From assembly GCA_902766815.1 (NCBI GenBank), contig CACXEZ010000157.1, forward strand, positions 1 to 7,089: DNA of 7,089 nt. Reading direction: 5' to 3'. This document shows, one piece after another, positions 1 through 6,835 of this stretch (position 1 is its first letter; every line of letters starts with the position of its first letter). The notes beneath the pieces were generated by a model, which saw only the letters and a list, made by a program, of their open reading frames with translations, was not told the origin of the DNA and searched no databases. Origin of the DNA: an uncultured Erysipelotrichaceae bacterium (lineage in GTDB: Bacteria; Bacillota_I; Bacilli_A; RF39; UBA660). A program made the position numbers and the translations under genes.

Positions 1-62
1 CTAACTGCTTCTAATCCTTCCAAAACTTGAATATCCGAAGCGTCATAATGTTCATTATTCAT
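1..62 (-). CDS. gyrB: DNA gyrase subunit B, N-terminal fragment
   Basis: Only the first 20 codons are in the window; the gene runs off the left edge. The ATG at 62-60 opens a peptide ending YDASDIQVLEGLEAV, which matches the conserved N-terminal arm and ATPase entry of type II topoisomerase B subunits (family pattern YDxxxIQVLEGLEAVRKRPGMYIG). ParE begins similarly, but a position right after recF is the classical place of gyrB, so GyrB is preferred. GyrB is the ATPase subunit of gyrase, which introduces negative supercoils ahead of forks. A Shine-Dalgarno AGAAGGA lies 8 bases before the ATG. The start overlaps the recF stop by 8 bases (55-62), so the two are probably co-transcribed and translationally coupled. 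The more upstream ATG at 70-68 hits a stop after two codons and was discarded. Confidence 0.93.
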   Translation of the reverse strand, partial: MNNEHYDASDIQVLEGLEAV

Positions 63-1185
63 TTTTGCATTCCTTCTTTCCATCAGTAACTATTTCACCA
101 TTCTCTACATGAAAAACACGAGCTTTATTTACTAACTCGTCATCAATTAAATCAATATCCGTAGTAGTAATAATAGTTTGAACATCATCTAAAATATATT
201 GTACTAACCTATTTCTCTTTTCAACATCTAATTCACTAAAAATATCATCTAAAAGTAAAATAGGATAATCCCCATCTTTTTCTTTGAATATTAATACTTC
301 AGCCAACTTAAGAGCTAGTATGGCAGCCCTAATTTGTCCCTGAGATCCATAAATAGCTAATTCTTTATCTCCCAAACGAAATTCAAAATCATCTCTATGT
401 GGCCCAATTATAGTTGCTCCATAAATTTTTTCTCTCTCATAAGAAGAAGTCAACTTATCCATCAACTGCTGAACCATCATTTCCTTTTCATCAATTTTAG
501 GAACATTAGCAATATATACAAAATGTAAATGATCAAAGCCCATAATCTCACGATAAATTTGAGACAAATATTGATTAACCTTAGAAACAAATTGTTGCCT
601 TTCTAATACAATATCCACAGCCAAAGAACAAAATGTTTCATTTAATTTATTTAAATAAATTTTATTATATTCACTTAAATACGCTACATTCTTTAAAAAT
701 TGATTTCTCTTTTTCAATATTGCATTATAATTTTGAAGCAAATTAACATATGAATTAGAAAACTGACTAATAACCATATTAATGCTTTTTCTTCTAACAC
801 TTGGACCATCTTTAACAAAATTAACATTATATGGACTAAAAATTAATACTTTAATTCTAGAAATATATTCACTATACTTCTTCATCTCAACTCGATTAAC
901 CTTTAACTTCTTAGAACTATCTGTGATTATAACCTCTAATTGATTTTTCTTATCACCATCCAAAAAAGTGGCTTTCAATCTAGAAAATTCTTCTCCGTCT
1001 TTAATCAAATTCTGATCCTTAATATTCATATACGATTTTGTGAGAGCTAAAACGAATACTGATTCCAATACATTAGATTTTCCTTGAGCATTCTTCCCAA
1101 TAAAAATATTTAAATTAGGAGATAACGTAATATCTAAATCTTTATAATTACGATAATTTTTAAGGTTTAAATTTTCAATTTTCAT
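55..1185 (-). CDS. recF: DNA replication and repair protein RecF
   Basis: RecF is an SMC/ABC-like ATPase that binds DNA at gaps and, with RecO and RecR, loads RecA. At 376 residues it is of normal family length. The N-terminus MKIENLNLKNYRNY is typical. Walker A is GKNAQGKS at residues 30-37, the FSPYN...KDGPSVRR region is at 116-132, GPHRDDFEF at 261-269, the ABC signature YGSQGQIR at 279-286, and Walker B with D-loop LLLDDIFSELD at 310-320. All catalytic motifs look intact. The start ATG (1185) fits the family N-terminus, but only a weak purine run (AAAGAT) precedes it. A short leader ORF (1210-1175) overlaps the start and has a better ribosome site, so coupling is possible. recF overlaps gyrB by 8 bases. 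The usual upstream partner yaaA (S4 domain) is missing; comK lies 183 bases upstream instead. A good extended -10 promoter sits in that gap. Confidence 0.97.
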   Translation of the reverse strand: MKIENLNLKNYRNYKDLDITLSPNLNIFIGKNAQGKSNVLESVFVLALTKSYMNIKDQNLIKDGEEFSRLKATFLDGDKKNQLEVIITDSSKKLKVNRVEMKKYSEYISRIKVLIFSPYNVNFVKDGPSVRRKSINMVISQFSNSYVNLLQNYNAILKKRNQFLKNVAYLSEYNKIYLNKLNETFCSLAVDIVLERQQFVSKVNQYLSQIYREIMGFDHLHFVYIANVPKIDEKEMMVQQLMDKLTSSYEREKIYGATIIGPHRDDFEFRLGDKELAIYGSQGQIRAAILALKLAEVLIFKEKDGDYPILLLDDIFSELDVEKRNRLVQYILDDVQTIITTTDIDLIDDELVNKARVFHVENGEIVTDGKKECKNE

Positions 1186-1303: not shown

Positions 1304-1337
1304 GTTTTCCACAATTTTTCTTTACACTGTGGAAAAC
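1304..1337. promoter_or_regulatory. inverted pair of DnaA boxes between comK and recF
   Basis: GTTTTCCACA (1304-1313, plus) and TGTGGAAAAC (1328-1337) form a perfect 10-bp inverted repeat with a 14-base spacer. Each arm holds the TTTTCCACA box that also recurs upstream of dnaA, one change from the classical TTATCCACA. The pair lies about 2.9 kb to the left of the dnaA start, just downstream of comK and upstream of the recF promoter. It may act as a DnaA-controlled site for recF-gyrB, as an outlying origin or titration site, or as an RNA hairpin at the 3' end of comK mRNA. There is no T-run after it, so it is a poor intrinsic terminator. Confidence 0.7.
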
Positions 1338-1368: not shown

Positions 1369-1863
1369 TTAGCAAGAATTCTCTTCTAAAATCATACATT
1401 CATTTTTTATAAAATTCTTTCGATTTAAAAGAATTTTTTCTAATTTAATACATCGTATAATTTGATTGTCTACTAAATTATATTTACACCCTACTTTAAC
1501 AGTAACATTCTGATGAAAATAAAGTACTGTGGAAATTTCATTAAATTTAGTATACTTTACCAGATTTTGATAAGATATCCAAATAGAACTCTCTCGAATA
1601 CAACTAGAAGTTGGAAAAAATATAATACATCTACTATCTTCAATAACAATAGGAACTTTCATTTCAATGCCTATTAAAGACTTCGTTCCTTCCTTTCTTC
1701 CCTCATAGCTACTACCAAAAAATAAGCAACTATCTTCAATAATTTTACGAGTAGATTTCTTTACTATAAATTCACCTCCATACTCATACACTTTAGACTT
1801 ACGAATTCCAATTGGAATAATTACAAGTGTATCTACATTAATTTCATAATTTTCTTGTTCCAT
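1369..1863 (-). CDS. comK: ComK-family competence transcription factor
   Basis: In Bacillus subtilis, ComK activates the late DNA-uptake genes and its own gene by binding paired A/T boxes. Recognition here rests on blocks remembered from the B. subtilis protein: CLFFGSSYEGRKEGT at 46-60 (B. subtilis CRFFGSSYAGRKAGT), VPIVIEDSRCIIFFPT at 70-85 (PIMVDPSNQIFLFPT), W95-I-S, and YNLVDNQIIR at 128-137 (YNSFENQVYR). The chosen ATG (1863) has AAGGGGG seven bases upstream and gives 164 residues; an upstream ATG at 1899 lies inside a dyad and has no ribosome site. The protein is shorter than the 192-residue B. subtilis ComK. It ends ECMILEENSC, just past the position of the B. subtilis FMLYPK motif used by the adaptor MecA. 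It sits alone between a terminator after dnaN and the recF promoter, in the slot usually held by yaaA. It could be a diverged ComK paralogue with a non-competence role. Confidence 0.88.
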   Translation of the reverse strand: MEQENYEINVDTLVIIPIGIRKSKVYEYGGEFIVKKSTRKIIEDSCLFFGSSYEGRKEGTKSLIGIEMKVPIVIEDSRCIIFFPTSSCIRESSIWISYQNLVKYTKFNEISTVLYFHQNVTVKVGCKYNLVDNQIIRCIKLEKILLNRKNFIKNECMILEENSC

Positions 1864-1875
1864 AAATAATCCCCC

Positions 1876-1899
1876 TTGTACAGATTTCTTCCTGTACAA
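1876..1899. promoter_or_regulatory. perfect dyad at the comK start site and ribosome site
   Basis: TTGTACAG (1876-1883) and CTGTACAA (1892-1899) form a perfect 8-bp inverted repeat with an 8-base spacer. On the minus strand the distal arm runs directly into the comK ribosome site (CTGTACAAGGGGG) and the other arm falls at the predicted +1. This is where a repressor operator is expected. As RNA it would be a 5' hairpin ending at the Shine-Dalgarno, able to modulate translation. The arms contain G/C and are not simple AT noise. I do not recognise the regulator. Confidence 0.6.
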
Positions 1900-1904
1900 A
1901 ATAC

Positions 1905-1913
1905 ATTAAAGCA
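1905..1913 (-). promoter_or_regulatory. comK extended -10 promoter element
   Basis: The minus strand reads TGCTTTAAT: an extended TGn followed by TTTAAT (five of six consensus bases). No convincing -35 lies 16-18 bases upstream; tandem repeats occupy that place instead, which fits an activator-dependent promoter. The predicted start is near 1898. The alternative TTGTCG/TACATT pair further upstream has a 19-base spacer and poorer matches. Confidence 0.4.
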
Positions 1914-1921
1914 CAAAATAA

Positions 1922-1950
1922 TGTAGAATTTTGTAGAATATTGTCGACAA
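1922..1950. repeat. tandem TGTAGAAT repeats and TTGTCGACAA palindrome upstream of comK
   Basis: TGTAGAAT occurs at 1922-1929 and 1932-1939, a period of 10 bases, about one helical turn. Directly next to it, TTGTCGACAA at 1941-1950 is a perfect 10-bp palindrome. Relative to the predicted comK start the repeats cover roughly -24 to -41, the usual place for an activator that replaces a weak -35. The bound protein is unknown. The repeats do not fit the AAAA-N5-TTTT ComK box. Confidence 0.45.
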
Positions 1951-1982
1951 AAATAAAAAAAATAGTGTTTTTTCACTATTTT
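1951..1982 (-). terminator. intrinsic terminator after dnaN
   Basis: On the minus strand AAAATAGTG (1982-1974), a loop of six A, and CACTATTTT (1967-1959) form a perfect 9-bp stem. It is followed by a T-rich tail (TTTTATTT, 1958-1951). The stem starts inside the dnaN stop codon. It should separate dnaA-dnaN transcription from comK. Confidence 0.75.
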
Positions 1983-3096
1983 AGTAAGTTTTAATCGGTA
2001 AAACCAATTGAATTAAAGAATCATCTTCATTAGATTTAATAATAATTGGGCTATTATCGTTATTCATATACATTGTAACATGAGAAGTTTCAAAACTTTT
2101 AATACTATCTAACATATATTTAGAACTAAATGAAATAGAAATCTCATCTTGACTATCTACAGACATTTTTTCTTCTACCTTACCAATTTCAGGAGAATTA
2201 GAAGAAATAATCATTTCTTGATGTCCTAATTCCAATTTAATAGTATTTTTATCACGATCAGATGTAAGTAAAGAAGCACGATCAATCATGTTAAATAATC
2301 CATTGCAATCACATTCAACTTGTACTAAGAATTCATTTGGAATAATAGCTGAAGTTGCAGGATAAGTCCCACTAAGTAATCTAGACAAAAACAATATGTT
2401 TTTATATTTAAATAATATTTTATTTTCAAAAATATGCAATTCTAAATTTTCATCTCCATCTATGATAATCTTATCTAATTCCAATAAATTTTTACCAGGA
2501 ATAACAATATTAATATCATTATCCAATTCTCTATCTAAAATAATACTCTTTTTAGCAAGACGATAAGAATCAGTAGCAATAACTTCCATCAAATCTCCTT
2601 CAATTCTAAAATTAATACCTGTTAGTAAAGGTCTAGATTCGTTTTTAGAAGTTGCAAAAAATGTTTGAGAAATAATTTTCTTAATTAAATTAGTTTTCAA
2701 TATAATTGGTTCCTTCGTTTCAGTCAAATCTAAATTAGGAAATTCATTAGAATTAACTCCATTTAAATTAAATTCTGTGTTGTCTGTACTAACAATCATT
2801 TTATTACCATCCATAACTTCAATTGTAATGCTAGTATTAGGTAGTTTCTTAATAATTTCAACAATGTACTTACCACCAATAACAATACTTCCATACTCTT
2901 CTATTTTTTCAATATCCCCTGTTGGAATCAAACATCTAATCGATATATCAGTATCACTAGCAGATAAATATAAACCTTCTTCTGTTAAATCAAACTTAAT
3001 ACCTGTTAAAATTGGTATTAAATTTCTTGGTGATATCGCTCTAGATGCATGATAAAGACTTTCTAATAAAATCTCTTGTTTAATTATAAATTTCAT
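1981..3096 (-). CDS. dnaN: DNA polymerase III subunit beta (sliding clamp)
   Basis: DnaN forms the ring that tethers DNA polymerase III to DNA and serves as a hub for repair and replication partners. The product is 371 residues, the usual length for three clamp domains. Typical blocks are PILTGIKF at 28-35, SRPLLTGINF at 154-163, ATDSYRLAKK at 174-183, and the C-terminal LVLPIKTY, which corresponds to the conserved end of the partner-binding domain. The ATG at 3096 was chosen because MKFIIKQ matches the family N-terminus and GAGGG stands seven bases before it; the ATGs at 3102 and 3114 are too close to, or upstream of, that site. It follows dnaA with a 174-base gap that holds the origin boxes, and a hairpin terminator overlaps its stop codon. 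Confidence 0.97.
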   Translation of the reverse strand: MKFIIKQEILLESLYHASRAISPRNLIPILTGIKFDLTEEGLYLSASDTDISIRCLIPTGDIEKIEEYGSIVIGGKYIVEIIKKLPNTSITIEVMDGNKMIVSTDNTEFNLNGVNSNEFPNLDLTETKEPIILKTNLIKKIISQTFFATSKNESRPLLTGINFRIEGDLMEVIATDSYRLAKKSIILDRELDNDINIVIPGKNLLELDKIIIDGDENLELHIFENKILFKYKNILFLSRLLSGTYPATSAIIPNEFLVQVECDCNGLFNMIDRASLLTSDRDKNTIKLELGHQEMIISSNSPEIGKVEEKMSVDSQDEISISFSSKYMLDSIKSFETSHVTMYMNNDNSPIIIKSNEDDSLIQLVLPIKTY

Positions 3097-3163: not shown

Positions 3164-3282
3164 TGTTGAAAACTGTGGAAAACTTATAAATTAGTTTATT
3201 ATATATAGTATTTTTTTTCCACAAAACAGTGTGGATAAAGTGCATTTTTATCCACTATTATCCACATTTATCATGTGGATAA
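3164..3282. promoter_or_regulatory. oriC: oriC DnaA-box cluster between dnaA and dnaN
   Basis: Boxes read directly: minus TTTTCAACA 3164-3172 (one further change) and TTTTCCACA 3174-3182, in tandem one base apart; plus TTTTCCACA 3215-3223; minus TTATCCACA 3230-3238; plus TTATCCACT 3248-3256; plus TTATCCACA 3258-3266; minus TTATCCACA 3274-3282. Three are perfect consensus boxes. The pair 3231-3239 and 3247-3255 makes a perfect 9-bp inverted repeat (GTGGATAAA, 7-base spacer). The last box lies inside the final codons and stop of dnaA. With the AT tract next to it, this is probably where the helix opens. Confidence 0.85.
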
Positions 3283-5046: not shown

Positions 5047-6810
5047 TTAATTGATATTATTGTTCCAATCAACCATCCATTTATTATAAATAGAAGCATT
5101 AGAACTATGTGGTTCAGGATTAGGAATTTGCATTTTAACAATCATAGGTATTTTCATCATTTTTCCAAAAGCAACACAGGTACCAGCCTGCAAAGACTTT
5201 TGTTTTTCAATAACATCAGAACTGATATTAGGAACCATTTTCCTAATATACTCTAAATCACTTGGGTGTGTAATTTTAAAAATCAAAAAATTAGTACATT
5301 GAGAAATTACTGTTTCACTAAGCTCAGTCGGTCTTTGTGTAATTAAATCTAAAATAACCCCAAATTTTCTACCTTCTTTAGCAATTCTTTCAAAAATATT
5401 ATAACCTAATATATTAATATCATTATCATTTTGCACGTAACGATGTGCTTCTTCAAGCATTAAATGAAATGGCATAGCACCTCGATCCTGTAATCCTTTA
5501 CAGAACTTAAAAATAATACGGCAATAAACTTTTACTAATGCTTTAGCAAATCTATCATCTATATCTTCCAAGACAAAATTAATAATTTGTGCTCTTTTTG
5601 TCTGGCCAACCATAACAATATTTGTAATAAACTCTGATATAGAGCAAAATTGCTCACATTGGAATATTTGTTTATAACTACTATTGTTAATAGTATGAAG
5701 CTTAACTTTTAAAGCCATTGCTTCAGAAGATGTTTTTTCATTTAAAAGCAAACCTTCACTAATTAAAGCAAAATTAAGTGCAATTTCTAAATCATCTAAA
5801 GTAAAATAAGTAGGAACATAATCTTCATTCCACTTTGTATCGTTATCAATAAATTTTTGAATATATTCAGCAATTAAAACCCGTTCAGCAAATTCTCCCC
5901 TACTATCTATTTCAAAGCATTTACGAAACTGTCTAGTATAACCAACACCAGGAACATCTACATCCAAATTCAATTCTTCCGTATGACAACTTTCTAAAAT
6001 AGAAAATATTTGATCACGAATACGTCCAGGAGTTTGATTAGTATACAAAACTGAAACAATAGCACTAGCAATCAAATGATTTTTATAACGGTGTGATTCC
6101 TCATCATTTCTAGCAAAAGTAGATACTAAACTTAACATCTTCTCAATAATAGAAAGTTGAGAATATTCAGTAACATCTAACAAATTAGCGTAATCATCTA
6201 CTGTAAGTAACCATAACGGCAAATTAATTTTATTACCAGATTGTCCATGAATAGAATACATCTTGTAATTGTAATTAACATTAAGACTATTAATAGATTT
6301 AAAAGCATTATCATATTCATCAGTATTATTAAAAATAAAAATATTACTATTAAATGGAATCTTGTCAGGTATATTAAATAAATTCTGTACAAATCTAGAC
6401 ATCCCATATGTTTTACCACTACCAGTATTTCCAAAAAAAGCATTATGATTACTCCACATATCATCAATATTAATTTTTATAGGGCAGTCATTATATAAAG
6501 GGGATAAACCTAAAACCATACTCTTATTATCGTTTTTACCAACTAGTTCATCCAACTCTTCTTGATTTATCAATCGAGTAGCAGCAGCTAAACTAGGTTT
6601 TCGAATAATACCACTATAAAATTTTCCATCAATAAATTCTCCCAAAAATGAAACTTTAATCTGTCCATCGCTAACTTCCTCTACCTCACCTAAAATTTTC
6701 TTTGAATCATCTTCAAATATCAAATTCATATTAAGTAAGTCATCATTTGTATTTCCTTCAATACGAACAATGGCATAATTTTTACTAATATTAACGAGTT
6801 CTTTAAACAT
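5047..6810 (-). CDS. HerA-type DNA-translocating ATPase (DUF87 family)
   Basis: This is a 587-residue ATPase of the HerA/FtsK superfamily, hexameric motors that pump double-stranded DNA. Visible parts: an N-terminal beta-rich segment (about 1-110) consistent with a HAS-barrel; Walker A GNTGSGKT at 127-134; LPLWLLTVDDYANLL at 197-211, a common block after the core strand; Walker B with catalytic acid FHLMLEEAHR at 448-457; the arginine-bearing RIAKEGRKFGV at 475-485; and TQRPTELSETVISQCTNFL at 491-509, the typical C-terminal motif. The ATG at 6810 has AGGAGG upstream; a GTG at 6816 is too close to it. HerA usually works with the nuclease NurA in end resection, or with SIR2- or nuclease-type effectors in phage defence. 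No partner is visible in the window, and none can lie directly downstream because oriC follows. The function is therefore inferred as DNA translocation only. No transmembrane segment or FtsK gamma domain is evident. Confidence 0.85.
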   Translation of the reverse strand: MFKELVNISKNYAIVRIEGNTNDDLLNMNLIFEDDSKKILGEVEEVSDGQIKVSFLGEFIDGKFYSGIIRKPSLAAATRLINQEELDELVGKNDNKSMVLGLSPLYNDCPIKINIDDMWSNHNAFFGNTGSGKTYGMSRFVQNLFNIPDKIPFNSNIFIFNNTDEYDNAFKSINSLNVNYNYKMYSIHGQSGNKINLPLWLLTVDDYANLLDVTEYSQLSIIEKMLSLVSTFARNDEESHRYKNHLIASAIVSVLYTNQTPGRIRDQIFSILESCHTEELNLDVDVPGVGYTRQFRKCFEIDSRGEFAERVLIAEYIQKFIDNDTKWNEDYVPTYFTLDDLEIALNFALISEGLLLNEKTSSEAMALKVKLHTINNSSYKQIFQCEQFCSISEFITNIVMVGQTKRAQIINFVLEDIDDRFAKALVKVYCRIIFKFCKGLQDRGAMPFHLMLEEAHRYVQNDNDINILGYNIFERIAKEGRKFGVILDLITQRPTELSETVISQCTNFLIFKITHPSDLEYIRKMVPNISSDVIEKQKSLQAGTCVAFGKMMKIPMIVKMQIPNPEPHSSNASIYNKWMVDWNNNIN

Positions 6811-6835
6811 ATACACACCTCCTAGTATATAAATA

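Follow-up and report, generated by a model that had tools for sequence, protein, structure and literature searches.

How did a gene coding for a ComK protein come to lie between dnaN and recF, and what might it do there? The DNA we have analyzed, which we call the window, is a stretch of 7,089 nucleotides from an uncultured bacterium. Bacilli have a dnaA-dnaN-rlbA(yaaA)-recF-gyrB cluster at this place. The genes and their direction are the same here, but rlbA is gone and comK is found in its slot: The minus strand of the window, read outward from the origin, carries dnaA, dnaN, comK, and recF (Table 1). To our knowledge, comK of B. subtilis is not in the origin cluster.

Our best explanation, to which we assign a probability of about 70%, is that a genuine ComK replaced rlbA/yaaA in an ancestor, was mostly inherited together with its neighbours, and has its own promoter with Spo0A boxes. 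The replacement would date back to the ancestor of a largely spore-forming order of Bacilli with small genomes. Throughout this order, a regulator of cell fate would then be lodged in a gene cluster that is among the most conserved in bacteria.

A genuine ComK in the rlbA slot

The first-pass annotation, made from the sequence of the window, had taken the 164-residue protein for a ComK and proposed a profile search. This search confirms that it is a genuine ComK, with a PF06338 score of 120.9 bits (the gathering cut-off is 22.3) and a match covering positions 2–150 of the 152 in the profile. Its gene is the only minus-strand open reading frame of at least 50 amino acids in the dnaN-recF interval of the window. 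Among the homologues found, 120 were listed, and 59 of these form our set A1.

Searches of the window protein against NCBIfam profiles gave no match, and a sequence search of solved structures gave no telling match and found no solved ComK. The predicted structure suggests a fold like that of the LytTR domains of ComE of Streptococcus pneumoniae and of AgrA, but the window protein has neither a LytTR sequence match (ComK alone is listed at E-values up to 1) nor a receiver domain. If true, this resemblance joins ComK structurally to regulators of competence and quorum sensing.

Table 1. Features of the window, with two sets of relocated loci in the last line
Feature	Position	Strand	Remarks
recF	55..1185	-	PF02463; synteny
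Two inverted DnaA-box matches, comK-recF gap	1305..1336	.	TTTTCCACA at 1305 (+) and 1328 (-)
comK	1369..1863	-	164 aa, ATG at 1863; PF06338, E 5.2e-35; 573 homologues
Ribosome-binding site	1871..1877	-	AAGGGGG, strong; from sequence
Hairpin in predicted mRNA leader	1874..1901	-	11 pairs; 3' arm overlaps ribosome-binding site
Extended -10-like element	1905..1915	-	TGTGCTTTAAT; fits TRTG-N-TATAAT-like pattern of relatives
Three 0A-like boxes	1919..1950	-	TTGTCGACAAT, ATTCTACAAA, ATTCTACATT; 10-bp spacing; degenerate in window
Terminator-like hairpin and T tract, dnaN end	1951..1980	-	AATAGTG-A6-CACTATT, then T6; hairpin visible at 1961-1980
dnaN	1981..3096	-	PF00712/PF02767/PF02768
DnaA-box cluster, dnaN-dnaA gap	3174..3282	.	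5 TTWTNCACA matches; last overlaps dnaA end
dnaA	3271..4689	-	PF00308, PF08299, PF11638
DnaA-box cluster upstream of dnaA	4758..4996	.	4 TTWTNCACA matches; likely part of oriC
HerA/DUF87-type ATPase gene at origin	5047..6816	-	PF01935, E 2.6e-15
Relocated comK / recF-gyrB loci	L023, L028, L031, L033, L036; L099-L101, L104, L106		comK beside ligA; recF-gyrB after mnmE

The slot itself had been described as that of yaaA/rlbA, with rlbA absent, and this description holds well beyond the window. A profile for YaaA, the S4-domain protein found near RecF (TIGR02988), has matches with an E-value of 9.2e-20 or better in 35 of the 37 genomes analyzed outside the order, while none of 38 order genomes has a match better than 1.4e-4, and the weak matches there are to proteins of about 240–290 amino acids. 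Twelve outside loci were read: Nine have the YaaA match between dnaN and recF, and in the other three recF is adjacent and dnaN was unrecognised. Since rlbA is missing in the order and YaaA occupies the dnaN-recF slot outside it, we conclude that comK has replaced rlbA. The claim that no comK had been described in the origin cluster also agrees with our search, which gave no such case among the matches listed in open-licence papers of PubMed Central.

Distribution and inheritance of comK in the order

The genomes used for comparison are 288 order genomes, sampled from a larger set (the order of genome G002), with listed sizes of 0.6–1.9 Mb. Judging from genome size and sporulation genes, this order is probably the uncultured RF39. 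Genomes described here as outside the order were drawn for the class and are not among these 288; the label refers to the draw and not to kinship. A profile search detects ComK in 274 of the 288 genomes, with a single match in each except G029, which has two. Among the 14 genomes with no match, 10 have no RecF, or weak RecF matches in far longer proteins, and two have just a piece of RecF at the start of a contig. In G129 and G287 the contigs end 63 and 175 bases upstream of recF, where comK would be expected to start. These 14 cases are no evidence of loss, because assembly gaps can account for them.

We have read one locus in each of 76 order genomes: L001, L002, the 30 best ComK matches, 24 more, and 20 mostly lower-scoring ones. 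The order dnaN-comK-recF on the same strand is found in 67 of them, including L062 and L063, where comK is 2.0 and 2.9 kb away from one neighbour. Four other loci are cut by the end of a contig and have the other neighbour present, and in the remaining five comK is beside ligA. In contrast with the order, none of the 20 best-scoring loci read outside it has comK near dnaN or recF. The comparison of this interval among relatives, which had been proposed for the window, thus shows an arrangement that appears to extend over an entire order of bacteria with small genomes, most of them uncultured.

A chance insertion confined to a single contig is ruled out by this order-wide arrangement. An assembly join or a contamination has a negligible probability. 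It is true that two relatives are metagenome-assembled genomes and that most loci are on short contigs, but the gene order is the same as in the window in the 67 loci mentioned above, both these relatives included, and ComK varies with DnaN. Nor is the locus a join in one contig, because the cluster represented by P0001 (90% identity), which is identical to the window protein, spans 15 contigs, the longest of 52,884 bases.

An unrooted tree of 97 ComK proteins separates the 77 from the order, that of the window included, from 20 others, with a branch support of 100/97. The distances between ComK proteins and between DnaN proteins in 63 loci are correlated (r 0.59; none of 999 permutations is as high), as expected if comK and dnaN travel together. 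The five relocated comK genes form two groups in the free tree, and an AU test (p 0.79) is compatible with a single clade as well, so the relocation corresponds to one or two moves. The comK gene is beside ligA in these five genomes, and recF-gyrB is found there after mnmE.

These data also agree with another history, a frozen accident: comK landed once, rearrangement is rare, its position has no regulatory meaning, and control by Spo0A came with the ancestral promoter. We give this view even odds. A single branch splits the order ComKs from the others, the cluster is stable, some members live with comK beside ligA, and in B. subtilis comK is already known to be controlled by Spo0A (according to the available part of PMC3297582). 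Against it, ComK is kept almost universally in reduced genomes, although this is also compatible with such an accident. In fact, this history is compatible with our best explanation, save for any role of position.

Predicted Spo0A boxes upstream of comK

The first-pass annotation had no Spo0A link at comK. Among the order genomes, 53 of 55 have a match to the Spo0A_C profile, as do 7 of 17 others, and in G001 and G002 the whole protein also scores above the NCBIfam cut-off for Spo0A. The order genomes look largely spore-forming, because SpoIVA is over the cut-off in 42 of 53. These counts are in line with the prediction of spore formation in RF39 found in the accessible part of PMC10868615, a part in which comK and competence have 0 occurrences. 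Genomes of about 1 Mb with spoIVA correspond to very small apparent spore-formers.

When reading the order loci, we found repeats of TTCGACAAA upstream of comK. In 76 comK upstreams of up to 160 nt (one was dropped for length), the form TTYGACA appears 65 times in sense and 7 times in antisense orientation, while 200 dinucleotide shuffles give 2.8 on average and never more than 11. At least one such strict 0A box, a predicted site which is degenerate in the window, is found in 45 of the 76 upstreams. Only 16 occurrences are found in 502 control upstreams: The frequencies are 5.36 per kb at comK and 0.20 in the controls, about 27-fold enriched. There are also 2 occurrences before 92 genes of L059-L078 and 1 in 20 comK upstreams outside the order. 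The count alone is biased, because the motif came from the very sequences in which it was later counted. Neighbouring boxes are spaced 10 bp in 23 cases, 20 bp in 18, and other distances in 6.

Perfect tandem boxes are present in 17 of 42 order genomes, absent from the other 25, and present in 3 of 8 other genomes; the reversed pattern is found in none of the 42. There are 49 matches, 17 of them from G004, and 30 were fetched as loci, 26 of these in the order. A gene for a kinase of about 400 amino acids follows the tandem site in 10 of these 26, comK in 6 (from five genomes), spo0A in 2, and another gene or none in the remaining 8. G001 has three matches: One precedes spo0A, and the other two, which overlap, are at comK. 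Nine of the ten kinases were scanned, all with HATPase and eight with HisKA domains. Outside the order, one of four fetched tandem sites precedes a response regulator, which is the site of the Spo0A match in G302. A kinase gene behind tandem 0A boxes is likely to form a feed-forward loop with Spo0A. These sensor kinase genes are found near position 1500 in L302, L305, L307, L309, L311, L313, L316, L318, L320, and L321; the kinase of G002 matches, among others, the model for the sporulation kinase KinD, below its cut-off.

Strict comK boxes are found in none of 6 genomes in which Spo0A is missing or degraded (<101 bits), compared to 31 of 45 with an intact Spo0A (Fisher p 0.002; 51 order genomes have both kinds of data). 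Loss of the boxes together with Spo0A is suggestive only, because there are too few independent pairs on the tree (2 on well-supported branches, 5 on all). The 14 loci with an intact Spo0A and no strict box have in part near-boxes, detected by eye; the window is such a case.

TTYGACA repeats could also serve another regulator or belong to the core promoter. Some comK genes without TTYGACA would fit such a view, as would the tree, on which the pairs are too few to judge a co-loss of box and Spo0A. We nevertheless consider it improbable: The reverse complement, TGTCGAA, is exactly the 0A-box core published in PMC3485338 and PMC5295017 (in the available parts of both), and the repeats precede spo0A itself, have a 10-bp phasing, and are rare elsewhere.

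The window had been described as having comK enclosed by its own promoter and terminator. The promoter stands as a prediction: An extended -10-like element is preceded by the degenerate 0A-like boxes, which are perfect in L001. They consist of TTGTCGACAAT and two TTCTACA; the sum of the top two scores is reached by 0.4% of the 502 control upstreams. The terminator is less clear, a visible hairpin between dnaN and comK with two G-C pairs, under the threshold of the terminator scan. A sigma-70 scan of positions 1180-2000 was uninformative, with 9 sites compared to 5.7 in shuffles. In L012, L024, and L025 there is an inverted pair of 0A-like boxes upstream of comK near the predicted transcript start, which resembles a repression site.

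The hairpin in the comK leader is listed as terminator-like by the terminator scan. The fold of this leader has a z value of -3.8 in the window. Mean values are -1.37 for 77 comK genes and -0.38 for 120 controls, with 33 and 23 genes, respectively, below -1.5; the 50 bases preceding the leaders, terminators included, have a mean of -0.76. The arms in L001 and L002 differ in sequence, yet they pair, and the hairpin is not universal. It may add a post-transcriptional control of comK.

Taken as a target of Spo0A fixed at the origin in the ancestor of the order, which is the most likely reading of these sequences, comK would have a promoter with tandem Spo0A boxes in helical phase just upstream of an extended -10. 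Starvation would act through a sensor kinase and phosphorylated Spo0A to activate comK, as established for the B. subtilis comK promoter. The available part of PMC3297582 describes binding of Spo0A~P to this promoter, at sites with one or two mismatches placed among ComK and Rok sites. Both systems share the same Pfam family and Spo0A sites before comK, but the boxes of the order are often perfect and have a 10-bp phasing, and autoregulation through K-boxes is putative here. It is suggested that this connection between Spo0A and comK is old, or useful enough for genomes of about 1 Mb to keep it.

DNA uptake genes and the position at the origin

Parts for DNA uptake exist in the order genomes. 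ComEC is found in 50 of 53 genomes and at least one T2SSE-family ATPase in 52. The comEA and comEC genes are neighbours in G001 as well as in others, and a PilB-type ATPase gene is divergent from prepilin genes in G001. On the other hand, DprA (PF02481), which is normally required for transformation, is not detected in any of 53 order genomes (G001-G055), while 11 of 14 control genomes are positive, including B. subtilis.

Late competence genes with paired K-boxes (AAAA-N5-TTTT) had been proposed as a check on ComK function. Some of these genes are there, as seen above, but K-boxes are not enriched before comEA: They are found in 4 of 32 cases (shuffle mean 5.5), and there is no pair. The comEA gene was recognized by motif in 32 of 46 loci and pilB in 24 of 37; a prepilin partner could be assigned in 8 of 24, and we left out all other cases. 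The gap between pilB and prepilin genes (8 sequences from 5 genomes) has a K-box in 2 cases, with a shuffle mean of 1.0, and a loose sigma-H-like promoter also in 2, with a mean of 0.3. Upstream of comK itself, K-boxes are found in 31 of 77 cases, more than in any of 100 shuffles (mean 16, maximum 27); we do not claim them as a signal, because A/T tracts of terminators account for them at least partly.

Strict sigma-H-like promoters are found at comEA in 4 of 32 cases, with a shuffle mean of 0.3 and maximum of 2, and 3 in 150 controls; the loose form is found in 6, with a mean of 2.0 and a maximum of 6. They are a lead only. The four loci with AGGAWW ... GAATAAT before comEA are L204, L208, L214, and L290. 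Most of 37 order genomes code for SigH-like sigma factors which match nearly the whole profile, and none of these reaches the curated cut-off. Competence in Staphylococcus aureus uses SigH with ComK1/ComK2. The order resembles this system in having ComK and a SigH-like sigma factor, with sigma-H-like sequences upstream of some comEA genes, but it has Spo0A and a single copy of comK.

According to our best explanation, ComK would act through a DNA-binding fold similar to LytTR on a set of targets which may include comEA-comEC and DNA uptake by pili. It is also possible, with less than an even chance, that ComK no longer governs DNA uptake and serves another Spo0A-dependent programme, for example pili or a state of growth arrest. 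The lack of DprA, the K-boxes not enriched at comEA, and the strict sigma-H-like promoters there point in this direction; the almost general presence of ComEC and of the T2SSE ATPase, and the adjoining comEA and comEC genes, argue against it.

The place of comK next to oriC had been thought to expose it to DnaA. This is not borne out: DnaA boxes flank dnaA on either side and are also found between comK and recF, but there are none in the comK promoter of the window. We have discarded control of comK by DnaA for this reason. From its position, a comK dose linked to replication would follow, as comK would be among the first genes copied in each round. Whether the place beside the origin times the fate decision can now be tested.

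A more speculative reading, doubtful as a whole, goes further. The whole order, genome-reduced spore-formers of the gut, would have built its ComK switch into the origin cluster. A phosphorelay kinase, spo0A, and comK would share a code of Spo0A boxes, dosage would rise with each initiation, and a ComK with a LytTR fold would drive a fate coupled to sporulation and different from transformation. Its case against textbook transformation rests on the missing DprA and on the K-boxes not enriched at comEA.

Beyond the DnaA-box stretch upstream of dnaA, which separates both genes, is the gene for the HerA/DUF87-type ATPase. Such a gene is also found in L001, L002, L059, and L069.
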